A stretch of DNA of 64,000 nt from the NCBI RefSeq assembly GCF_051622035.1, contig NC_135367.1, positions 14,808,501 through 14,872,500 of the forward strand, read 5' to 3'. The notes beneath the pieces were generated by a model. The model did no database searches. It was not told where the DNA came from and worked only from the letters and a program-made list of their open reading frames with translations. Source of the stretch: Arctopsyche grandis. Lineage: Eukaryota; Arthropoda; Insecta; Trichoptera; Hydropsychidae. Shown here piece after piece: positions 4,332 to 42,904 of this stretch (positions are counted from its first letter, which is position 1; each line of letters opens with the position of its first letter). The translations under genes were made by a program, and so were the position numbers.

Positions 4332-6281
4332 CTTGAAATACACCCTTTATCCAAATATCCCCCTTGGTTTACATCGTCTCTTATTAAAATTATAAAAGAA
4401 AAAAACAAATTCCATAAAAAATTTAAAATTTATTCAAATCCCTTAGATTATCAAAGTTTTTCACTATTAAGAGCTCGAATTAAAAAATATTCTTTAATCT
4501 GCTTTAGAAATTATATTTCTCTTATTCAAAATAATATTAAAACTAATCCCAAATCATTTTGGTCATATATAAATTCAAAAAAAAATACCTCCTCTTCATA
4601 TCCTTCCGTAATGTATTATGGAAATAAGTCGGCTTCACATGGTTCTGAAATCTGTACCATTTTTGCTGACTATTTTGACTCCACTTTCAATAGTGATTCT
4701 ACCATTAACCTTTCTATCTCTAATACAGATACTTCTTCTTGTAACTTATCTACTTTTCATTTTGACTTATCTACTGTACTCAGTCACATCAACTCTCTCA
4801 ATGTTAATCTTGGTGCGGGTTGTGATGGTTTGCCTTCTTTTTTCCTTGTTAAATGTGCTGTCCCATTATCTCTTCCCATAACAATCCTTTTCAATCTTTC
4901 TATGTCGAACGGTAAATTTCCTGACTATTGGAAATTATCTTACATCACCCCTATTTTTAAAAAAGGTGATAAGAATCTTATTGAGAATTACCGTCCTATA
5001 TCTAAACTATCTGTCATTAGTAAAATCTTTGAAAAAATTATCTATAATTTCCTTTTCTCCAATTTCAAAAACTACATTATACCTGAACAACATGGTTTTT
5101 TTAAGGGGAGATCGGTAGAGACTAACCTGCTTAATTTCACTAGTACTCTCACATCTTATATGGACAAACGAATCCAAATAGACGTCGTTTATACGGATTT
5201 CTCTAAAGCTTTTGATAAAATCAATCACAACCTTTTACTCAATAAACTTTGGTCCCTTGGAATCCGAGGAAATTTATTTCGTTGGATCTCTTCGTATATA
5301 CTAAATCGTCACCAAATCATAATTCTCAATGGTTTTAGATCATCACTTAGACATATTCCTTCCGGTGTCCCACAAGGGTCGCATTTAGGTCCCTTATTCT
5401 TTTTACTCTATATTAATGATATCTCATACATCTTCAAACATTCCTTTATACTTCTTTACGCTGATGATTTAAAAATTTACAAACCTATATACACCATAGA
5501 CGATTGTCATAAGATACAAGAAGATCTAGATAGATTCTCTATATATTGTTTAAATAATGATCTTTTTATTAATCTAGAAAAATGCTCTATTTTAAATTTC
5601 ACTAGAAATAAGTCAATTATTACTAATCAATATCAATTAAATCATTCAATCCTTAACACGTCATCTTCTATTAAGGATCTTGGTGTAATACTCAATAATA
5701 AACTAGATTTCTCTGAACATATTTCTTTTATTACCAACAAAGCATTTAAATCTCTTGGATTCCTACTCCGCTCAACAAAACCCTTTAATGATCCTTATGT
5801 ACTAAAATTACTTTATTTTTCCTTTGTAAGGTCTCACCTTGAATTTGCCTCAATTATCTGGTCACCTTTTTATTTATCCCATATTAATTGTATTGAGAAA
5901 GTTCAACTTAAATTTATTAAATCCTTACGCTACCTTTTTCCTACCTATACCCATTCTACTGTTTCCGACATTTTAAAAATCCTTTCTTTTAACAATCTTT
6001 CTGTCAGGCGACGACATTCTGATGCTATATTCTTCTTTAAGCTCATAAATGGTTTCCTTGATTGTTCTGATTTACTGAATAAGGTTAATTTCAGAATCCC
6101 AGTTCGATACCCTAGACGCGTTACACTCTTTTCACTTGATCCTTTCAATACTAATTCCCAAAAATATTTTTATCTGCAGCGCGTTTATCGTATGTTTAAC
6201 GGAGAGCTGAATGAGGTTGATCTGTTTGGTATTTCCCTACATCAATTCAGGTCTAACATCAAGAGAATCTTGACCGATTGA
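4332..6281 (+). CDS. LINE reverse transcriptase, N-terminally truncated
   Basis: The frame is open from just after a TAG at 4329-4331 to the stop at 6281 (649 codons); the first ATG is at 4611 (556 aa). The part before that ATG already reads like the linker between endonuclease and RT in non-LTR elements (PPWF, then a basic stretch, then PKSFWSYINS), so the true start is lost. From the ATG, RT motifs appear in order: FKKGD and NYRPIS near residues 117-130, YTDFSKAFDKINH near 194-206, GVPQGSHLGPL near 252-262, and the catalytic YADD near 283-286. The C-terminal region (RRHSDAIFFFKLINGFLD and on) is typical of Jockey/CR1-type polymerases. It would copy its own RNA by target-primed reverse transcription but cannot act alone without the endonuclease. 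Confidence 0.9.
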   Translation, partial: LEIHPLSKYPPWFTSSLIKIIKEKNKFHKKFKIYSNPLDYQSFSLLRARIKKYSLICFRNYISLIQNNIKTNPKSFWSYINSKKNTSSSYPSVMYYGNKSASHGSEICTIFADYFDSTFNSDSTINLSISNTDTSSCNLSTFHFDLSTVLSHINSLNVNLGAGCDGLPSFFLVKCAVPLSLPITILFNLSMSNGKFPDYWKLSYITPIFKKGDKNLIENYRPISKLSVISKIFEKIIYNFLFSNFKNYIIPEQHGFFKGRSVETNLLNFTSTLTSYMDKRIQIDVVYTDFSKAFDKINHNLLLNKLWSLGIRGNLFRWISSYILNRHQIIILNGFRSSLRHIPSGVPQGSHLGPLFFLLYINDISYIFKHSFILLYADDLKIYKPIYTIDDCHKIQEDLDRFSIYCLNNDLFINLEKCSILNFTRNKSIITNQYQLNHSILNTSSSIKDLGVILNNKLDFSEHISFITNKAFKSLGFLLRSTKPFNDPYVLKLLYFSFVRSHLEFASIIWSPFYLSHINCIEKVQLKFIKSLRYLFPTYTHSTVSDILKILSFNNLSVRRRHSDAIFFFKLINGFLDCSDLLNKVNFRIPVRYPRRVTLFSLDPFNTNSQKYFYLQRVYRMFNGELNEVDLFGISLHQFRSNIKRILTD

Positions 6282-20553: not shown

Positions 20554-20701
20554 ATGGCATTTTTAGAAGTATTCATATTATTTTACTAGAATATAATATA
20601 TCGATGTTATTAAATTTCGATTCACGTTTTATAAAAAAACTATATCTGAAATTAATATTCTTTGTTATTGCAATTATTTTTGTAATATTTGAAAAAAATA
20701 G

Positions 20702-20764
<63 letters not shown>

Positions 20765-23700
20765 CACCTTTCACCGAACCTTTCAATCGCAACTAAATTA
20801 TAAAATATATTTATTTGTTATCAAATTTATCGATAAATCGTTGTGTTGTCTCTGTTGTCATTTTTAAATATTGACTGTAATTATACAAACACGATATCCA
20901 ACCAATATCACACTCGTTCAACAGTAGTTCACGCATTAGCATTGTCTAGGCATTTATTTTTCCCATCTTTGTTCCTTTTTGAATTACTTAATTTTGTGCA
21001 TAAGATGGATAAAATTAATTACGTGGACATTATGCACAACCCTTGGGTAAAATTTAATTTGACAAAAATTATGTAAATATAAGAGAAAATTTATGTTGTG
21101 TGGACTTTTTAATTTTGATTTTGAATCATTTTCAAATCCAGCATAAAAACTTAATTTTAATTTATTAGTTACACTTATTATATGTATGTGTATTGTCTTG
21201 GAGTATGTATGCTCATTCAAGTTTTTATTGATGAATTTTACTATTTGTGATAAAATATGTATATTTACATATGTGATTATTTATTGATTGTTTGTATTGT
21301 TTCAGTGGCGCAAGTTTAATTTCTTTGAATTGCGTAAAAATATTGATGGAGGCAAAGTTGCTGAAGCATTGCAGGTGAAAATACTTAAAACATCTGAAAG
21401 ATACAATGTGAAATTCATGTTTCATGTTTCAAAGTTTACAATGGGTCTACCTCACGGGCCGGAATGTGAAATTACCGAAAACGCAAATATCGCGTTATCG
21501 GTAATTTCACATTCTGGCCCGTCGCGGAGACCGGTTTACAATATATGTACTTTTGTGCCATATAAAATGTTTGTATCATGCTTTTTGTATTTTTTAGGAT
21601 ACCGCTATTGAAGTATGTTCCAGTGGATATTCCCAACTGGTAATTGGAGATGCTAAAGGTTGGGTGCATCTCTTTTCACGTGCGTGGAAAGTTACATCGT
21701 TTAAAGCTTACGAGCATTCCATTTTTCAAATTGTTCAATTGAGACATGATCCATGCATCGTTACAATCGGCGTAAGTTTATCTCGAGCTTTATCAAATTA
21801 TTTGTTTTATTTTTCTCAACAAATGTTATGAAATAATTCGGAATAGGAAGATGAAGTTGGCATTAAGTCAGTTATTAAAGTTTGGGACAGTGTGCGCCAA
21901 GATGGACAAGGCCGACCCGTTTGTCTCAGAGTTACCAAATTATCACGAATGAGACCGGCATCGACGTGTTTAACTATTCATGAAAATAAGGTATATTGAC
22001 ATATTTTTTTGAGAATTATCGCTAATTATACGAATAATTTAATGTTGGAACGCTTTAGAATTTGATGGCGATTGGGTTTGACGATGGCTCGGTAATTTTA
22101 TTCAGAGGTGATATAACGAGGCAACGGAGTAGTAAGGAAGTTGATATTCGCAATAAGCCTACTGACGGTACTCCGATTACTGGACTTGCGTTTAAGTATG
22201 TTTTTCATACGTATGTAGGGTGGTGTTGAATCGAATAATACATTTCAGAATACTTTTCTATTTTGAGTTAGATGAAAATAACAATACCTAATCATACTCA
22301 AGTTGAGTTTTATTGAAATTATATAATATTTTTTCTTATATGAGAGCCTCAAATGATTGGAAATTCTAATCTTTTCCAGTTTTATATTATAAAATTGAAG
22401 TTCACTAGTAAAAATAGAATTCTGAAGTGTGTTTATAGTTTAAACTTCACCCAGATAATTGTAGATTTTATTTCTCGAGATTTAATGTTGATTTTTATTT
22501 CAGGGGCACAACTCATTTATTCATTGCTAGTCGGTCGTCCGTCATGGTATACACTATTGGAAACAGTGGGAAAGAACGTAGTGTGATCATGGATGAAGGT
22601 GCTAGTGGATGTCGGCTTCACTGTGCTGTTTTAGTACAAGATCAGCAGTTTGTGGTGGCTAAAAATGATGTATGCATCTGATGTATTTTTGTATTCAAGT
22701 TCTTAACTTACTGTGCGATATGTTTTTAATCAAATTTAAATTTTTAGGCGATCTATTGCTATACAACTGACGGTAGAGGTCCGTGTTATGCATTAGAAGG
22801 CGTTAAAAAACGCGTTGATTGGTTCCGTAGCTATCTAGTCACCATTTCGAAAGACTCTGGATCTAAAACCACGGCTCCGGGAAGTGATGACTCGCCATCG
22901 GGCGATTTGATCACAATTTTAGACATTCAAAATAAATTTATAGTTTTTACGATGGCTCTGGAAGAAGTCAATGCGGTGATCACAGAATGGGGAGCGTTTT
23001 ATATAATTACAGAAGATAAACAAATTCATCATTTAGATGAGAAAGATCTTCAGTCTAAATTAAGTTTATTGTTTAAGAAAAATTTATATGATGTTGCTAT
23101 TAGAATCGCCAGCAGTCAAAAATATGATTCAGAAAGATTGATTGACATTTATACGCAATACGGAGATCACCTTTTTAAGAAGGTACATATTACTGTATTA
23201 TACAATATTTATTGTCTATTTATCTATGGAATTTTATTTATCGTTTATGGTCATTTATTATAGGGGGATCCTAAAGGAGCAGTAGAGCAATATGTTAAAA
23301 CTATCGGAAGACTTGAAACGTCTTACGTTATTCAAAAATATCTTGAGTCTAGACATTTGGAACCGTTGACTTATTATTTACAAGAATTACACAAAATGGG
23401 TTTAGCTACTGAAGACCACACCACTTTGCTTCTGACATGCTTCGTAAAGTTGGATCAGCACGATCAGCATGGAAAATTAAAAGAATTTATTAACGCCAAA
23501 GATCGCGTTATTGATTTTGATGTAGAAATTGCAATTAAAGTGAGTATAGAATAGAGACAATTTTTATTTACATTTCATTTTTATGTGGATATATGTAGTA
23601 ATAAGAACATGCTTTCAGGTGTGTAGACAAGTAAGTAGCGATGATGCTTTGTATTTATCCAAGAAACATAAACAACACGATTGGTATCTTAGGATAGTCA

Positions 23701-26700
23701 CCGAAGATAAAAAAGATTTTTTAGCAGCTCTGGATTATATTGCCGATCTAGAATTCGATGATGCTGATGTATATATGAAAAAATATGGCAATGTACTAAT
23801 ACAGCATGCTCCAGCGGAAACTACGCAATTTTTGAAACGTAAATAAATTATTTTAGATTCTTTATAAATTGTTTTTTAATACTTGAAATGGATATTAATG
23901 ATAATAGAAGAGCATAATTAAAAAATAATGTATTTATGTACATGAGTATTATCTCTTGGACCCTTAGTTCTTTTTTGCTAGGTTAATATAATATATGTAT
24001 GTTGATATTATACATCCTTCAATTGTTAAATGTCTTTGCCTGATCGTTTTCAGAACTTTGTATTGATTACAAACCCAAAAATAAACCATTGGTAGATGAT
24101 GCTATGATGGCTGGTGTCGTATCGCGTAATCAAGCAGACAGAGCTCGTCCCGAGGAGTATATTCATTTATTTTTGAATAATTCTGAACGGCTCGTCGAAT
24201 TCCTCGAACATTTGGTCAAATGCGAAATTAATTGGTCGACCTTAATTTACAATACTCTAATAGAGCACCATCTTCACGTATGGTCCAGCCTCAAGGACAA
24301 GCCCCAGTTGAGGGAAACCTACGAACAGAAGGTTGTCAAGCTCCTTCAGAACTCGGAAGCTAATTATGATAAAGATCAAACGTTGATAGTGTGCTTGATG
24401 CTCAATTTCAAACCAGGAATTTTGTATTTGTACGAAGAGTATAAATTGTGGGTATAGTTTCGGATTTGATATTATACAAATGTACAGTTTTGTTGTAATA
24501 ATTGGCTATGTTTTTTTTTTTAGATATCAACAGATTCTTCGATATCATGTTACTCAGAAAGATATGGACTCTGCGATGATCTGCTGTCGTAAATTTGGAG
24601 CTCAAGAACCTCATCTTTGGGTTGAAATGCTGTGGAGTCCACCTCCACCCAAACATTTAGCAGAAGTGCTTAACGTTATAGGTTTGTAAATAATATTTTT
24701 TATCGATTTTAAATAATTTATAAAGAATTCACATGATTCGGTATATTCTTTAGCTAACCAACGACTACTGTCTCCACTACTAGTCATCGATTGTTTAACA
24801 AATTCAACTACCTGTACTTTGGGAGATGTAAGAAAGTAAGTATTATGTATAATTTAATTCTCATATATCATATAAAACAGTCTAATTTTTATACTTATAT
24901 TTCTTTTTTGTTTATAATTAGATATTTAATGAATATATTAACTGGAGAAGAAGAGATAAGTGCACGAGAGGCAACGCAAGGCGATCGCCTTCGCGGGGAA
25001 GCTGCTCAAGGACGAAACGAATTACGTGATGCTCTCTTAAGACCTTTGGTGTGTCAAGCTTCGAGATGTGCTGCTTGCTCCCGGCCACTCGATTTACCTG
25101 CCAGGCATTTCTTATGTAGTCATAGCTATCATCAACAGTAAGGACTTACCTAAAATATGAAAGAGTTCCTCAATTCAATTTTACAATTGATTTTGTTTTT
25201 TAGTTGTTTTCAGAGCTTTTCTGAAAATGAAGAGGAATGTCCAGCATGCGTACCCAATAATAAAAAATTACTCGAAGTTCTACGTAATCAAGGTACTAGT
25301 GCTCAAACCACGGAAGCATTCCATGCTCAATTAGAAAAAGCAAGTGATGGGTATGTATTATAACAACCAATGTAGTAGAAATACCATAGTAATTGACCTG
25401 GAGTATAGTATTTTGATCACTGGTTTTGAATTTGAAAGTAGTCATACAAACATATGTAATGCTATCGATTAGTAGTAAGCAAGGTTGGTACATTGTGAGC
25501 ACAAAAAACTTCCATAAATATTTTTTGGATTTTGAATATAACTACAAATATGACTGACAATAGATCAGATCAATTTCTTTGATCTATCTCCAGTATGTTT
25601 TTATAATGTTATACTAGTTTTCTAAAGTTATATTTTCATATATTATCTTAAAATTGAAATGGTAATGGGCGGGCCACGTGGTCAGAAGAATGGACGAAAG
25701 GTGGACAAAAGAAGTGTTTGAATGGTACCCGAGAGAATGCAAAAGGGTAAAAGGAAGACCGCAGGGAAGATGGGTGGACGAAATTAGGAAAATGTGCGGT
25801 GTGAGATGGATGCGAGTTGCGCAAAACAGAGACGAGTGGAAGCGTGTTGGAGAGGCCTTCATCCAGCAGTGGATGGTGAATGGCTGTAAATGATGATGAT
25901 GATCTTAAAATTATATGTACATACATACAAGCAGTAATAATTTTGAATAATATAACTGATGATTTTACATAAAAAACTGATAAAAATTTTGTTTGAAGAT
26001 ATTTATGTCTGTTATCTATAATTCCAGATTTTCTGTAGTCGCTGAATATTTTGGTAGAGGTGTATTCAATAAGTTAACCATCATAACCGGTGATGATACA
26101 TCAGCTGAAGGTAAACCAGGTGCGTCTAAGATCGAATCTTACAGTCCTCCTAATTTAGCATTAGGTACTAAACTTCCAAAAGCGATAAAGCCTGAAACTT
26201 TGAATTATGGTCCTGGAGCCGAAGCCAGAATTCGATTAGAAGAAGGCGGAAAAAATAGACAAGGTTATTATTATTCTATTTTTAATACATATTTTATTTT
26301 GATAGCCAAAGCGACATTTGATTATATTTTTTTGCAGCTATTACTGTGGAAAGCCAAAGACCGCCACCGTCGAAAAGCTCAATTATTATACCGACGACTG
26401 AAGCTCGTATTCGTCTGATGGAGCAGAAACGTCAAGAGTTACAATACAGTTCTAGTCTCGAAGCCAACATAAACCGCTTCCCCCAACCCGAAGCAAAGCA
26501 GTCTAATTCGAATTTAGCAAATCTATCAAGTGATTTTTATGATAAGGATTCTTCGAAGAATACCACGCCAGCGAAGAACTCTCCTATATCGTTGAAAAGT
26601 AAGCGATTCGATAAAATCTCATCAAATATAGACAACAGTAGTTTAGGAAGCACAAGCTCTTTGCGCGACAATAAATCTCAAGGGTCAAAATCGAACTTTA

Positions 26701-26849
26701 ACCCATTCGAAGATGATTCTAATAATCCATTTGCGAACAGTGATGATGAGAAGCCTGTTAGTAATGTGTCGTCAAAAAATAATCCATTTGACGAAGACGC
26801 TGATGATGAATTGAGCAGCTCGGACAAACACACAAATCCTTTTGCATAA
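20554..26849 (+). CDS. Vps11: Vps11, HOPS/CORVET core subunit, with NPF tail
   Basis: The spliced gene encodes 1126 aa in 16 exons: 20554-20568, 21306-21374, 21598-21771, 21847-21990, 22059-22195, 22504-22669, 22748-23182, 23264-23539, 23619-23838, 24054-24447, 24524-24681, 24754-24835, 24922-25137, 25204-25350, 26028-26263, 26338-26849. All have GT-AG borders and matching phases. Exon 1 (MAFLE) joins WRKFNFF, as in Vps11 of other animals. The protein has an N-terminal beta-propeller (GEDE-type and FDDGSV blades), an alpha-solenoid (FKKNLYDVAIRIA, YGDHLF, EDHTTLLL) and a C-terminal RING-H2 at C806, C809, C822, H824, H827, C830, C841, C844, then GRGVFNKLT. Vps11 is a scaffold of the HOPS and CORVET tethers that drive endosome-lysosome fusion. 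Most Vps11 proteins I know (human 941 aa) stop soon after GRGVFNKL; here about 225 residues follow, hydrophilic and Ser/Asn-rich, with NPF at 1078, 1086, 1105 and 1123. Intron 2 carries a palindromic MITE and intron 14 an RTE fragment. The exon 1 assignment is by homology and splice fit. Confidence 0.93.
20703..20762. repeat. (AT)n microsatellite in Vps11 intron 1
   Basis: Uninterrupted TA dinucleotide run of about 60 bases, 134 bases after exon 1. Confidence 0.9.
21443..21534. mobile_element. 92-bp palindromic MITE in Vps11 intron 2
   Basis: Nearly the whole element is one inverted repeat: arms with GGGCCGGAATGTGAAATTAC and its near-complement surround a loop of about 7 bases. TTTACAAT flanks both ends (21435-21442 and 21535-21542), an 8-bp target duplication. 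Transcribed with the gene, it would form a hairpin with arms of about 45 nt. It is GC-richer than the intron. Confidence 0.8.
25656..25901 (+). pseudogene. RTE-like LINE 3' end in Vps11 intron 14
   Basis: The frame reads GHVVRRMDERWTKEVFEW, then GRPQGRWVDEIRKMCG, RWMRVAQNRDEWKRVGEAF and QQWMVNGCK before a stop, without breaks. This is the C-terminus of an RTE-like polymerase. It ends in a TGATGATGATGATGA tail typical of RTE 3' ends. ATCTTAAAATT occurs at 25645-25655 and again at 25902-25912, an 11-bp target duplication. It is 5'-truncated, and Vps11 splice sites are not disturbed. Confidence 0.85.
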
Positions 26850-28186
<1,337 letters not shown>

Positions 28187-31100
28187 TTAATATTTTATCT
28201 TCTTATGGGCTACGTTATCATTAGCCCCATTCATATGAATATCCCCATTTTTTGTCTTTTGTCTAGACTCCATCATGAATGGTATCTTATGCTCTAAATA
28301 CATGTGGTTATCCGGAGCAAGACCGATGCAAGCTCTGAGAATATTCTCGATGCAAGCGCGCTGTTTAAACAGTGCATTTATGACTGGAGTACCTTCAGGA
28401 ACAAGCGGCGCCTTGAGAAGATATGACAGTGGTGAAAGTATTGAATGAAACTTGGAAAAATCTCTATTAGAATTGGCTTCCTTGAATTCTATTCTAGAAA
28501 ATAATTCTGTTAGTAGAACCAAATCGAGGATTATTGGCGTTGCGAGGAGTGAATCTTCGCATGTATTGTGAACGACTATCGTATTATGTCCGCCAAGGAG
28601 AATTTCAGATGTGTACTCATCCATAGCTCGTTTAGAATCACCTAAAATTGCATCGACGTTTACTGGTGTGTCATTTTATTTACAATTTGTTGAATTTATT
28701 ATGTTTAGATACTTACCAACGTATGGTACATATTTAATGACCACACAATGATCAGGAGTTTCTCCTTTGGAGTATAGACACGAATTTGATTCGACCATAT
28801 CGTCGACGACATTGCTTTTGGTAATCTAAAACATTATCATTATGAAATCTTTCAATAACTATATTTTAAATGTATGCATAAGCTAAATTTTTGTCTACCT
28901 CTTTAGATCTGAACTGTTTGGGTGCTTGTAGATTTTTTCCATCGTTGTTTCCGAGGTGATTGTAACTTGCGATCGATACTGGTTTTATACCTGCATTGTT
29001 TAGTAAAGTTTTAAATCATATACTTTATAAATGGCTTGTAATTAAATTTTCGATCAATATTCACTGTAGTGATTCGATAGAGTTAGTAAAATAATATTTT
29101 GGTCAATATTATTTTACTAACTCAAAATATATTTGAGTAAATGAAAATTGATAAGTAAATATAATGTATACCAGCACTGATGAGGAAATCTACCAGAACA
29201 GATTTCAGTTTTGTTTGGCCGGATTTGAAGTCATCTCCACCGACAAACACTCCGTTGATTTCGGCCATTTCCATTATTCCAGGCACGATTGTATTTTGAG
29301 GAGATCCATTGATAAAGGAACACTAAAATAATCAAATATTATATAATACTAGTGTTTTTACTCGGCTTCGCTCGGTATTTGTAATGTAAACCGCTTAAAC
29401 ATGGCCAATTTAATAGTAAGCATTTTATTAAATTTATTTGAATAGTTTTATTGTATTTAAATTTATTTGAATATTCATTTGCTTTTTATTAAATTGAACG
29501 TCACGGATTTTACGAACCAAACAAACATACATACATACAATGTCTCTTTCGAAATTATATATTAGACTAGTGTTTTTACCCGGCTTCGCTCGGTATTTGT
29601 AATATAAACCGCTTAAACATGGATAATCTAGTAGTAAACATTTGATTAAATTTATTTGAATAGTTTTATTGTATTTAAATTTATTTCAATATTCATTTGT
29701 TTTTTATTAAATTGAATATCACGGAGTCTACGAACTAAACAAACATACATACATACAATGTCTCTTTCGAAATTATATATTAGACTAGTGGTTTTACCCG
29801 GCTTCGCTCGTTATTTGTAATATAAACCGCTTAAACATGGATAATCTAGTAGTAAACATTTGATTAAATTTATTTGAATAGTTTTATTGTATTTAAATTT
29901 ATTTCAATATTCATTTGTTTTTTATTAAATTGAACGTCACGGAGTCTACGAACCAAACAAACAAACATACATACATACAAAATCTTTTTCGAAATTATGT
30001 ATTAGATATATAGATATTTTTTTGTTTAGAATTTATCTGTAATAATACTAAAATGTGCATATTTATTTTACTTGATCAGTATTTTTATATCAGCTATTTA
30101 GTCAAGTATTATAAGAGCTGCTTTATGCACTGTACATAAGTACATATATAACACACAGACAAATTATAAAACTTACTCTTTCTTCAACTGCAGCTGCAGC
30201 ATAAATCGTCGATGGAGATATTTCAGAATGATTTTTCTTTAATGCATTTAGCACATTTTTCGACGTGTCATGAACACCATGAATCACATCACTAAACCTG
30301 TATAATATATTAATTATTACCTTTTAATATGCTATATACTATACATATGTTCATATTAAAAAGTATGAAATTTTCATACCTTTCAGTATTAGCAGTCCAT
30401 AAAACGATGACATCGTTTAGATTGTTTTTTGTTTTGAAATCTTTTATATCCGATCGTATTTGTAAGTACTGTTCATATCTGGTACCTTCTAGAATATTCG
30501 TCGCACGGTCGGCCTTAGACAAAATTGCGTGGTGAATTACAAAAGAATGTGAGATATGCACCAAAGTGTGATAAATATTATGCAACTGTTATGTCATTGC
30601 ATTAACCTTATGTTTGGTAGAAAATATTTTAATGACACATCCTATTAACAAAATACTAACGACGAGTAATAACAATTCAATCTTTTAAATAAGAATCAAG
30701 TTGTTATTATTTTTCCTGCTATATATGTACATAAAAATGTAATATACCTGATTGGCAGCTATGAAATCAGGGTCATAGATACCCGGTCTCGGCTTCATCT
30801 GTGACATTTCCTCCTTGAGCTGTTGCTGCAAATTGTAATCGAGCACTTGGGCACGTGTCATGGATTCGACCAAATTCAACGAGCTGATATCCCACCCGTC
30901 GATGACTGAAATGAAAATTTCATAATTGCATAGTGTGTCAAATTTTAACTCCAATAACATCTACACATAGTTAAATACAATACCCAAATCGTCAGGATTG
31001 ACCATAGGCAGGACATCACACATAGGTATATATACATCTTTGCCGCGTTCGTCCATACCCAGACGAACTGTGCTCGCTTGGGTTAAGGATCCGTACCTGA

Positions 31101-38552: not shown

Positions 38553-40094
38553 CTAAGCTACCGAAGTTGACGGAATTGAAGCTGCTGTTTCTCCTCCCTC
38601 TTGCTGATCTTCCTTCCTGTCAAGTGGTCCTTGTGGTAGAATCGGCAATGGCGCCACTAGATGACTGGACCGACGAAACTCTCCGCTGGCAGTAAAGACG
38701 TCGACGACTCGAACTCTGCCATCTGGTCCGGGATACAATTTAGTGACTCGACCCAAGACCCATCGGGTTGGCAGCATGTGTTCCTCCTTTAACAGGACCA
38801 TTTGACCCACACTCAGATTGTTGCTCGAGTCCTTCTTCCATTTGTGTCGTAACTGCAAAGAATGTAAATATTCCGCCGACCAACGTTTCCAAAATGCTGC
38901 TGTGGTCAATTGTATCTGAAGCAGATTGGCATGGACATTAGTGTTATATTTAACCTCCATTGGAAGAGCGAGTAAGGATCTGCCAATTAAGAAATGTCCA
39001 GGTGTGAGGGGTAAAAGGTCTAGTGGATCCGAAGACAAGGGACTAAGAGGACGGGAATTCATGCAAGCTTCTATTTGAGTCAATACCGTACAAAATGATT
39101 CGAAATTTAAGGTGGTGGCCTTTAACACCTTGTTTAAATGAATCTTCATGGATTTAACCGCTGCTTCCCACAGCCCTCCCATGTGAGGCGCCCTTGGCGG
39201 GTTAAACTTCCAACGAATCCCTTCGGAGGCTACATACCGTAGTAGCTTCTCCTCATGAGGACGTTCGTAAATTAATTTTACTAAATTAACGAGTTCACGA
39301 CTTGCACCGACAAAATTAGTAGCATTGTCGGAATATATCGTATTGGGCCTGCCACGTCTGGCTACGAATCTTCTTAAACAATTTAAGAAATTTGAACTCG
39401 TTAAGTCTCCGACAAGTTCCAAGTGAACTGCCTTACTGGAAAAACACACAAAGACACAAACGTAACCCTCAATTATCTTAGAATTCTTATTGCAACCACT
39501 CTTCACAGGAAAAGGTCCTGCGAAGTCTATCCCCACATGACTGAAAGGAAAATTCGCAGTGGTACGTTCAAGCGGGAGCAATCCCATTAATCTATTGTGT
39601 GACAGTGGTTTATTTCTGAAACAAATGACACATGAACGCACCACTCCTTTGACAGTATTATGTCCGGCCAATGGCCAATAGGTCTGCCGCAATAACGACA
39701 GTAAGGCTTGAGTACCCAAGTGAATATATTTCAAGTGCGCATCTCGGACAATCATGTGTGTAAGTTTATGCTTATTTGACAAGATAATGGGTGACGTTGA
39801 TAGAGTTGTTCCCAGAGGAAGTCTACTTCCAACACAAATTAAATTCTCATGGAATAGAGGGGACAATTTAGCTAATTTACTGCTACTGGGAATTGGATGT
39901 CCCTTGCTCAGCAAACGATATTCCAATGGAAATGATTCCATTTGCGATAACCTTATCAAATTATTTAAAGCATCTTTTAATTCGAAAGCGGACGGTTCGT
40001 TATTTTCTTTAACGTTTAATTGTTTATTCCTTAGTGGCCGACGAACATATGATAAAACTCGAAGGAGTCTTGGAAGATGAGAATATTTATCTAT
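38553..40094 (-). CDS. BEL pol C-terminal part: integrase
   Basis: Open from just after the in-frame TAG at 40095-40097 to the stop at 38553 (first Met at 39959, 468 aa). It holds the zinc-binding HHCC region (H..H..CVIC), the DDE catalytic residues in VGIDFAGP, YSDNATNF and GLWEAAVK, and the BEL-type C-terminal domain with RWVLGRVTKLYPGPDG. Integrase inserts the cDNA into host DNA. It continues in the same frame as the upstream gag-pol part, so one stop codon separates them. Confidence 0.9.
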   Translation of the reverse strand: MDKYSHLPRLLRVLSYVRRPLRNKQLNVKENNEPSAFELKDALNNLIRLSQMESFPLEYRLLSKGHPIPSSSKLAKLSPLFHENLICVGSRLPLGTTLSTSPIILSNKHKLTHMIVRDAHLKYIHLGTQALLSLLRQTYWPLAGHNTVKGVVRSCVICFRNKPLSHNRLMGLLPLERTTANFPFSHVGIDFAGPFPVKSGCNKNSKIIEGYVCVFVCFSSKAVHLELVGDLTSSNFLNCLRRFVARRGRPNTIYSDNATNFVGASRELVNLVKLIYERPHEEKLLRYVASEGIRWKFNPPRAPHMGGLWEAAVKSMKIHLNKVLKATTLNFESFCTVLTQIEACMNSRPLSPLSSDPLDLLPLTPGHFLIGRSLLALPMEVKYNTNVHANLLQIQLTTAAFWKRWSAEYLHSLQLRHKWKKDSSNNLSVGQMVLLKEEHMLPTRWVLGRVTKLYPGPDGRVRVVDVFTASGEFRRSSHLVAPLPILPQGPLDRKEDQQEGGETAASIPSTSVA

Positions 40095-42728
40095 CTAATT
40101 ATTTTCCCTCACAAGGGTAGCGTTAGTGACTACCCTTCTCTCTGGAAGATCTATTGTGATCTCAGGAGGTCTTCGAGGCCATCGTGATTCATCTAATTTC
40201 AACCAACTAGGGCCGTCCCACCATAACGAATTATGATTTAATTGTACATTTTTATTTTTCTCTGCTATTTGAATCTGTCGGTACATCTGCTTAATATCCG
40301 CAGTAATCACGTATTTATGGAGTCGAAAGTTGAGTAGTAAACTTAACAAATCTGATTGGACACTAGGTCCCACCATCAAAATATTATTTAGTGAGATATT
40401 GGACGTTGTCTTTGCGGACGCATCAAAAACTACACGATATTTAGTGGTAAGGCTAGACTCCTTAACTACGACGTGATGAGGTGAATAACAATGAACCTCA
40501 TGTGCCTCCGGAGGTTCACACTCTGACATATGTCCTGAATTTATATACTCTTCTAAAACTTTATTGTATTCCATTTTTAAATTATTATTGGCTAAAAAAC
40601 GTCTTTCCAAAGTTTTGTGTCTTTTCTCCGCAATGTGCAATGAACTTCCTAATACTACCGGGGAATTTTTATATGGTAAAGCTACACAAAATCTACCGTT
40701 TTTATCTCGTGATGTGTGTGCTTGGAAATGTTCCTCACATCTTTTCTCCTCAAGAGATTGATGTTTTACCATAGGAACCTGGTCTATCATCCAAAAGTTT
40801 TGAATGTGACTGTCTAATTGACTTAAGCCTATGTGGCTCTTCCCTGGAGCATTATTTACTTCGGGATATGGACCAACTATTGTCCATCCGAATTCGGTAT
40901 CCTTTAAGATAGGCATACCTTTTCCTAACTGGATGGTTCCTGCTTTCATAGCATGAACGCAAATCTCGGCGCCGAGCAATAAATCGATTGGCGTCGGTTT
41001 ATTCCAAAGGGGATCTGATAACTTGATTCCCGCTGGTATTGAAATTAACTGTTGATCCAGTTTCACAGTTGGAATTTCGCCAGTAATTTCTGGTAATACC
41101 AAACACAACACTTTGGTTGAGTAATTAGTGGTTGAAGACCTTATGGTCACCTTGGTGATGTGACGAATGCTACTTTCTTGATTAGCGATACCTACAATTT
41201 TTTGAGAGATTTTCTCTAACTTGAAGTTATTCTTCTTAGCGAAAGATGTGGTAACATAGTTGACTTGTGAGCCGGAATCTAATAATGTGCGACCCTTAAC
41301 GACCGTTCCATTGGACGTTATAATGTCTACTTGTACCGTCGGTAAAATTATCTCCCTTTGAGAGAAATGAGTAGAATGAGCATTAATTGACTTCCTTCCC
41401 GTATTATTTGAACTAAATGTATCGTCCTGATGCAACAAAGTATGATGGTTTTGTTTGCACCTTAAGCAATTATAGTTAGACTTGCAATTTGTTATCTTAT
41501 GCGATGAATTTAAACATTTAAAACACATGTTATTAGATTTAACGAATTCATTTCTTTCCATACTGGATTTTGCTTTGAATTTATCACATTTGCCTATGAA
41601 ATGATTATTTCGACAGAATGCGCATGCGTTTACCTTACTTGATGGGTTTTTGTTCGCGACATGAGTTCTCATGATTCTTTGACGACTATGAGGGAATTCC
41701 TTCACCGTAGTTACAGATGCAGTAGATTGTAATACATTACATCTATTCTGCAGAAACGTTTCTAACTTCTCGTACGGTGGCATTTCTCTGTCAACCAGAG
41801 ATGTTTCCCAGTCCTTTAATAAACTAAATGGTAATTTCCTTAGAACTAAACATGTTACCCATGGATCTAAAATTTCTCTCGCGTAACCCAATGATTCAAT
41901 GTTTTTAATACACACCGTTACCTTATTTAATAGATCTCTCAATTCGATATGTGATTCCTTTGTGATTAATTTTAAGTCACAAAGTGAGTTGATCCTAGTT
42001 TTGAGATTAAGTCTTGGTAAATTATATTGCTTGTCTAAAATACTCCAAGTTGTTTCGTAATTGTCTGAGTTAATATCTAACCCTGAGACAGCTGCTAAAG
42101 CGGGACCGAGTAATGATTGATGCAAATATAGTAATTTAGTGACATTAGAATATTCAGGTTTATTTCCTATTATATTTTTGAAGGTTTGTTGAAATGATTG
42201 CCATTCAGATGGATCTCCCTGAAATGTGGGAATAGTCAACGTCGGTAACTTATCTCTAGCAAATTTAATTGTTGTTTGCTCTACTTTTAGTTGATTATTT
42301 TGAATGGATTGTCTATCTAATGTCGCTTTAAGATTTTGAATTGTCATTGAAATCATGTCGAACTCTTCGTCTATTTGATCCGCCTGCTCTATATCTGTGA
42401 GGTTATCTAAATACTCATAATGGAGTTTTCGGACATAATCGTATGCTTCTTTAATGGTTTGATACTGGCCTTCATTTATTTCGGAGGTTCTTTCTATTTT
42501 TCCCTTTAGTCTTTTTAACGCGCCCGAATACCTTAATTCTATTGACGCCATTGTAACTTCTACTTTATTTTCTTTCGCTAATATTTCTATCGATTGAGTC
42601 TGACTTCGAGTCTGATGTATTCTAGAGCTTGACCTGTCTCTAATAGGTTCTACGTCCCTAGTTGGATTTCGACCTTTATGCGACTTGGAAGTCGAAGCTT
42701 CTATTTCCTCGTTTTCAGCACTTGACAT
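40095..42728 (-). CDS. BEL gag-protease-partial RT
   Basis: 877 aa on the minus strand. In order it has a coiled N-terminal gag region; a gag domain with PTLTIPTFQGDPSEW; three cysteine-histidine knuckles (CAFCRNNHFIGKC, CFKCLNSSHKITNC, CLRCKQNHH) at about 41440-41640; an aspartic protease with LLDSGSQVNYV near 41270; and the start of RT with YRVVFDASAK and ITADIKQMYRQI. At about 40235-40245 the frame jumps to the LWWDGPSWL block, which in intact BEL elements lies several hundred residues further on. The YxDD catalytic centre and RNase H are therefore deleted, and the deletion kept the frame. A TAG then ends this part. Confidence 0.9.
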   Translation of the reverse strand: MSSAENEEIEASTSKSHKGRNPTRDVEPIRDRSSSRIHQTRSQTQSIEILAKENKVEVTMASIELRYSGALKRLKGKIERTSEINEGQYQTIKEAYDYVRKLHYEYLDNLTDIEQADQIDEEFDMISMTIQNLKATLDRQSIQNNQLKVEQTTIKFARDKLPTLTIPTFQGDPSEWQSFQQTFKNIIGNKPEYSNVTKLLYLHQSLLGPALAAVSGLDINSDNYETTWSILDKQYNLPRLNLKTRINSLCDLKLITKESHIELRDLLNKVTVCIKNIESLGYAREILDPWVTCLVLRKLPFSLLKDWETSLVDREMPPYEKLETFLQNRCNVLQSTASVTTVKEFPHSRQRIMRTHVANKNPSSKVNACAFCRNNHFIGKCDKFKAKSSMERNEFVKSNNMCFKCLNSSHKITNCKSNYNCLRCKQNHHTLLHQDDTFSSNNTGRKSINAHSTHFSQREIILPTVQVDIITSNGTVVKGRTLLDSGSQVNYVTTSFAKKNNFKLEKISQKIVGIANQESSIRHITKVTIRSSTTNYSTKVLCLVLPEITGEIPTVKLDQQLISIPAGIKLSDPLWNKPTPIDLLLGAEICVHAMKAGTIQLGKGMPILKDTEFGWTIVGPYPEVNNAPGKSHIGLSQLDSHIQNFWMIDQVPMVKHQSLEEKRCEEHFQAHTSRDKNGRFCVALPYKNSPVVLGSSLHIAEKRHKTLERRFLANNNLKMEYNKVLEEYINSGHMSECEPPEAHEVHCYSPHHVVVKESSLTTKYRVVFDASAKTTSNISLNNILMVGPSVQSDLLSLLLNFRLHKYVITADIKQMYRQIQIAEKNKNVQLNHNSLWWDGPSWLKLDESRWPRRPPEITIDLPERRVVTNATLVRENN

Positions 42729-42904
42729 TTGTTTCAGAAAGTTGCACTATTTCGTCTCATAAATACAGTTATTCTCTACTATAGCTGTCAATTGAACTAT
42801 TCGTAGAGATAAGGTAATAATATTCAATGATTAACCGTGAATCTTAATATTCTACTTTAACTATTATCACCAGAATCTATCCAACATATTTTGGAAGAAA
42901 TAAC

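Follow-up and report, generated by a model that had tools for sequence, protein, structure and literature searches.

The Vps11 gene of Arctopsyche grandis (Trichoptera) continues past the point where the conserved part of its protein family ends, and the added part contains four NPF tripeptides. This raises the question of whether Vps11, a core subunit of the HOPS complex, by which vesicles dock to lysosomes, could carry a docking tail for EH-domain proteins in this insect. The locus was analyzed in a window of 64,000 nucleotides (the whole stretch of DNA studied), to which the coordinates refer.

Gene structure and conserved domains of Vps11

Reconstruction from splice sites and phases gave a 16-exon Vps11 gene at 20554-26849 (+), with 15 introns, all of them GT-AG, and 3381 nt in the joined exons. 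The phases close, as a preliminary description of this DNA had claimed, in a single frame of 1126 residues with one terminal stop. A scan for prokaryotic promoters and terminators was uninformative for this gene. The exons and the features at the C-terminal end are as follows:

20554-20568, 21306-21374, 21598-21771, 21847-21990, 22059-22195, 22504-22669, 22748-23182, 23264-23539 (+), exons 1-8
23619-23838, 24054-24447, 24524-24681, 24754-24835, 24922-25137, 25204-25350, 26028-26263, 26338-26849 (+), exons 9-16
25064..25249 (+), RING-like zinc finger, exons 13-14, residues 805-844 (coordinates derived from the exon model)
25259..26070 (+), VPS11_C, exons 14-15, residues 848-892, the last block conserved within the family
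26080..26849 (+), C-terminal tail, exons 15-16 with intron 26264-26337 between them, residues 896-1126 (231 aa and stop)

Pfam comparison identified the N-terminal beta-propeller (PEP5_VPS11_N, PF23341, residues 6-333, E 2.3e-99), the clathrin-repeat/TPR solenoid (TPR_PEP5_VPS11, PF23356, residues 378-742, E 2.2e-82), and VPS11_C (PF12451, residues 848-892, E 6.4e-14), whose model was matched over its full length. Several RING models matched residues 805-844, the best with an E value of 2e-4 and each under its own curated cut-off; the same stretch also aligned with the RING region of PEP5 in the HOPS structure 7zu0, which places a RING in the C-terminal part of the protein. PEP5 chains (7zu0, 8cuk) were the closest solved structures. 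The propeller, repeat region, RING, and C-terminal block of PEP5/Vps11 in 7zu0 all align with the A. grandis protein, up to residue 892 of the latter and residue 1023 of the former; the 7zu0 chain, of 1029 residues, differs in ending 6 residues past the aligned part, without a tail. Because VPS11_C and the 7zu0 alignment both stop at residue 892, the conserved part of the family ends at GRGVFNKLT (residues 887-895), which agrees with the usual family end named in the preliminary description.

Coding character of the C-terminal tail

A tail of about 225 residues past GRGVFNKLT had been claimed; 231 were found, with the bounds of exons 15 and 16 unchanged. The GC content of the tail was 40%; that of the Vps11 introns was 26%, and that of the 451 bases 3' of the stop was 16%. 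Codon log-odds were +0.37 bits per codon in the frame used and -0.04 and -0.49 in the other two, and windows in the Vps11 introns scored at most -0.17 in their best frame; this is a modest test, since the codon table was trained on the core of Vps11 itself. Among 20,000 Markov sequences built from the dinucleotides of exon 16, a single one had any of its three frames open over 169 codons. A frameshifted intron or UTR as the origin of the tail was ruled out by composition and codon score. From the gene model, the tail is predicted to be a coding extension of Vps11.

In the 475.7 Mb genome of A. grandis, the exon 16 sequence had a single match, the Vps11 gene itself, and thus no second copy. The tail had no match in Pfam at E values up to 10, and nothing better than E 1.1 in the PDB; the best PDB match, a dioxygenase, was taken as chance. 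No relatives were found in the viral_contigs and genome_contigs collections (viruses and prokaryotes), as expected of such collections.

NPF motifs in the tail

Four NPF tripeptides occur at the positions given in the preliminary description:

26700..26708 (+), NPF 1, residue 1078, NPFEDD
26724..26732 (+), NPF 2, residue 1086, NPFANSDDE
26781..26789 (+), NPF 3, residue 1105, NPFDEDADDE
26835..26843 (+), NPF 4, residue 1123, NPFA, then stop

All four fall within 48 residues, and residues 1-895 of Vps11 contain none. When the tail was shuffled 200,000 times, four NPFs never arose and three arose six times; the Poisson probability of four or more, given the tail composition, is 5.9e-7. The six frames of the window contain 193 stop-to-stop ORFs of 60 aa or more; NPF is missing from 191 of these, occurs once in one, and occurs four times in that of Vps11. 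The four NPFs exceed chance, and the composition of the tail alone does not explain them.

Acidic residues occupy three of the positions +1 to +4 after the NPFs at 1078 (EDDS) and 1105 (DEDA) and one after that at 1086 (ANSD); there are none after the NPF at 1123, which is one residue from the protein end. The earlier statement that each NPF has acidic or Ser/Asn neighbors is thus to be qualified: only 1078 and 1105 have a strongly acidic flank, 1086 has one acidic residue, and 1123 is followed only by Ala. The net charge of the last 56 residues is -9, and that of the three blocks before these is +1 to +3.

The NPF codons partly differ (AACCCATTC, AATCCATTT twice, and AATCCTTTT), and no tandem repeat was found in 26028-26900; therefore, recent tandem duplication of DNA is not an obvious source of the motifs.

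EH domains as candidate partners

Ligands of the NPF type usually lie in unstructured protein regions. Six EH-domain matches, at four places, were found in the A. grandis genome. PDB comparison showed one place to be EHD-like, matching 2kff, the EH domain of EHD1, with an E value of 3.6e-35, one to be REPS-like, and one intersectin-like; the fourth was read by eye as Eps15-like. The 2kff entry set presumably includes complexes with NPF peptides. EHD-type EH domains favor NPF with an acidic flank, according to the available text of two reports (PMC13282721, PMC4398442).

The best-supported reading is that the tail may act as a disordered, multivalent array of EH-domain ligands on the HOPS scaffold, because NPFs bind EH domains, EHD favors acidic flanks, and the genome encodes EH domains of these types. 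We hold this reading with slightly better than even confidence; what we infer is that the animal translates the tail, that EH domains bind it, which proteins are the partners, and what follows for the cell. The translated, mostly disordered tail would hang off the C-terminal end of Vps11. Its acidic NPFs (1078, 1105) would favor EHD, a membrane-remodeling ATPase of recycling endosomes whose EH domain is basic, and its non-acidic NPFs (1086, 1123) could serve EH domains of the Eps15/intersectin/REPS type. In this way, the tethering machinery might be recruited to, or kept at, the endosomal sites where EH proteins act.

In its way of working, such a tail would be comparable to Rabenosyn-5, MICAL-L1, and Rab11-FIP2, in which an NPF with an acidic cluster is bound by EHD EH domains; however, as the accessible part of the same source describes them, these are unrelated EHD1 partners and not HOPS subunits, and the label of Rab effector covers Rabenosyn-5 and Rab11-FIP2 (PMC13282721). 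The preliminary description had likened the tail to the EH-ligand array of Rabenosyn-5. The NPF array does fit published EH ligands, but the likeness is one of motif only; the FYVE zinc finger and Rab-binding domains of Rabenosyn-5 were not among the 14 Pfam families that matched the A. grandis Vps11 at E values up to 1, nor were they found in the tail at E values up to 10.

Precedent in C. elegans and the case for NPFs without a partner

A Vps11 with multiple NPFs is neither new nor confined to insects, because one is already in print for C. elegans: a single sentence of a published study lists proteins "with several NPF repeats", vps-11 being one of them (PMC3570524). The likeness between C. 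elegans VPS-11 (R06F6.2) and the present protein is taken from that statement, which comes without NPF position, number, or flanks in the text available. With regard to spread among insects, a point raised in the preliminary description, this indicates that the trait is not insect-specific. It also makes an accident of one lineage less likely, since the nematode protein is said to hold several NPFs as well.

The same study screened a yeast two-hybrid library with five EH baits; VPS-11 was not among the 26 interactors in the available text, and vps-11 cDNA was present in the library at levels like those of recovered clones (PMC3570524). According to its authors, partners of RME-1/EHD were possibly missed because oligomerization was not achieved (PMC3570524). 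Since the screen lacked EHD oligomerization, room is left for EHD binding; the arm of the model that involves Eps15, intersectin, and REPS is weakened.

The screen bears on the foremost alternative, in which the tail is translated but no EH protein is dedicated to its NPFs. HOPS would then simply tolerate a disordered, rapidly evolving end rich in Ser, Asn, and Asp, with weak, redundant, or no selection on the motifs. The low complexity of the tail (38 Ser and 22 Asn among 231 residues), its lack of Pfam or PDB relatives, and the failure of the five C. elegans baits to recover VPS-11 (PMC3570524, as far as its text is available) are consistent with this. Against it stand the large excess of NPFs over the composition expectation, the several NPFs ascribed to the nematode Vps11 in that source, and the acidic EHD-type flank at two of the four motifs. 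This alternative is possible but rather unlikely.

Predicted structure of the tail

Exon 16 was modeled alone and as a single sequence with AlphaFold, which returned one helix and otherwise no structure (mean pLDDT 60.9, pTM 0.24):

26397..26471 (+), predicted helix, residues 977-1001 (model residues 20-44), beginning EARIRLMEQKRQELQ

The mean pLDDT of the helix was 97 for model residues 21-30 and 89 for residues 31-40, in a single-sequence model of low overall confidence. The NPF region is predicted to be unstructured in the same low-confidence model, with block pLDDT values of about 50-56. The hexapeptide EARIRL opens the helix (residue 978) and recurs at residue 943. An exact repeat of this length or longer occurred in 80 of 20,000 shuffles, for which reason the repeat is suggestive only.

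The tail might have its main job elsewhere, with the helix and the EARIRL pair docking, e.g., a HOPS subunit, a Rab/Arl protein, or an adaptor, and the NPF end being secondary. The confidence of the helix and the rarity of so long a repeat among the shuffles point in this direction. However, the helix has no found relatives, and such helices are common in single-sequence models; the repeat is modestly improbable and was chosen after inspection. A docking role for the helix as the main function is improbable, and the EH-ligand array is preferred.

Splicing of exons 15 and 16

Read-through past exon 14 meets a stop within a few codons. The use of exon 15 is required, since it encodes the final portion of VPS11_C and an end after exon 14 would truncate this domain. 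The donor of exon 15 is weak (AAG/GTTATT), and a better-looking one (CAG/GTGCGT) lies upstream in the same exon:

26120..26263 (+), in-frame stretch of 48 residues that would be skipped if the exon ended at 26119

The upstream site is likely an alternative exon 15 donor; its use would drop the 48 residues and retain all four NPFs. The frame of exon 15 runs on without a stop through intron 15, whose retention would terminate the protein at 26418, without NPFs. It is very improbable that the tail is a gene-model artefact, i.e. that exon 16 is left unjoined in most transcripts (through retention of exon 15 or of an intron, or through another 3' end) and the NPF tail is rarely made: the weak donor and the open intron favor this, but exon 16 is open throughout and coding-like solely in the joined frame, its acceptor (TTTTGCAG) is good, the phases close, and the end of VPS11_C calls for exon 15 at least.

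HOPS as the likelier context

Drosophila Vps11 has about 830 residues and is too short for such a tail. In the fly, the early-endosomal miniCORVET consists of Vps8, Vps16A, Dor, and Car and lacks Vps11, and loss of Vps11 resembles loss of HOPS subunits, as the available text of one report has it (PMC4935465). Drosophila Vps11 is thus, like the present protein, an insect Vps11 of the HOPS complex, although one known to stand outside miniCORVET (PMC4935465). Because the fly miniCORVET has no Vps11, HOPS is a likelier context for the tail than CORVET, and the tail would more likely belong to HOPS if A. grandis resembles the fly. The preliminary description had proposed tethering of a HOPS/CORVET scaffold; the HOPS part is retained here, and the CORVET part is considered less likely, since the CORVET-like complex of Drosophila lacks Vps11 in the account cited. 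A search of the A. grandis genome for zf-Vps39_C gave one match, which we judged by eye to be Vps39.

Significance

No published function for a multi-NPF Vps11 was found in the literature searched, in which the term "Vps11" misses spellings such as vps-11. Titles and abstract openings among the matches listed for Vps11, EHD1, and HOPS contained no link between Vps11 and EHD. In the literature searched, no earlier report was found of the tail of A. grandis Vps11, its acidic NPF pattern, or its helix. Should EH proteins bind to the tail, HOPS-dependent fusion would be directly linked to the endocytic and recycling machinery of these proteins. Such a link would have escaped studies in yeast, and perhaps also those in flies and mammals, whose Vps11 may lack a tail of this kind.

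A broader and more doubtful scenario may be put forward tentatively. A HOPS scaffold with a docking tail for EHD/Eps15 might be an old animal trait, kept in nematodes and at least some insects and lost or reduced elsewhere. It would physically join lysosomal tethering with membrane remodeling by EHD, and its acidic and non-acidic NPFs would address two classes of EH partners.

Neighboring features

Intron 14 of Vps11 has 677 bases, and 10 of the 15 introns have 66-86. It contains an open stretch of 75 codons (25666-25893, +) with no Pfam match, which we take to resemble the C terminus of a reverse transcriptase from a LINE; the LINE-like stretch inside may explain the length of the intron. Intron 2 holds a near-perfect inverted repeat at 21461-21515 around GGAATGTGAAATTACCGA; the two matches in the window are the arms of the repeat, which is possibly a small foldback element. 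Elsewhere in the window, a 649-codon frame at 4332-6281 (+) matches the RVT_1 reverse transcriptase (Pfam, 1.1e-28) and is probably a LINE. Two adjacent long frames at 38553-42746 (-) match integrase, DUF5641, DUF1759, and aspartyl protease in Pfam, and represent a BEL/Pao-like retroelement. The REPS-like EH gene lies on the same contig at contig positions 14738941-14739135 (-), some 96 kb upstream of the part of Vps11 that encodes the tail, which is probably a coincidence. An exon of myo-inositol-1-phosphate synthase was found at 28187-28675 (-), its gene being arranged tail to tail with Vps11.
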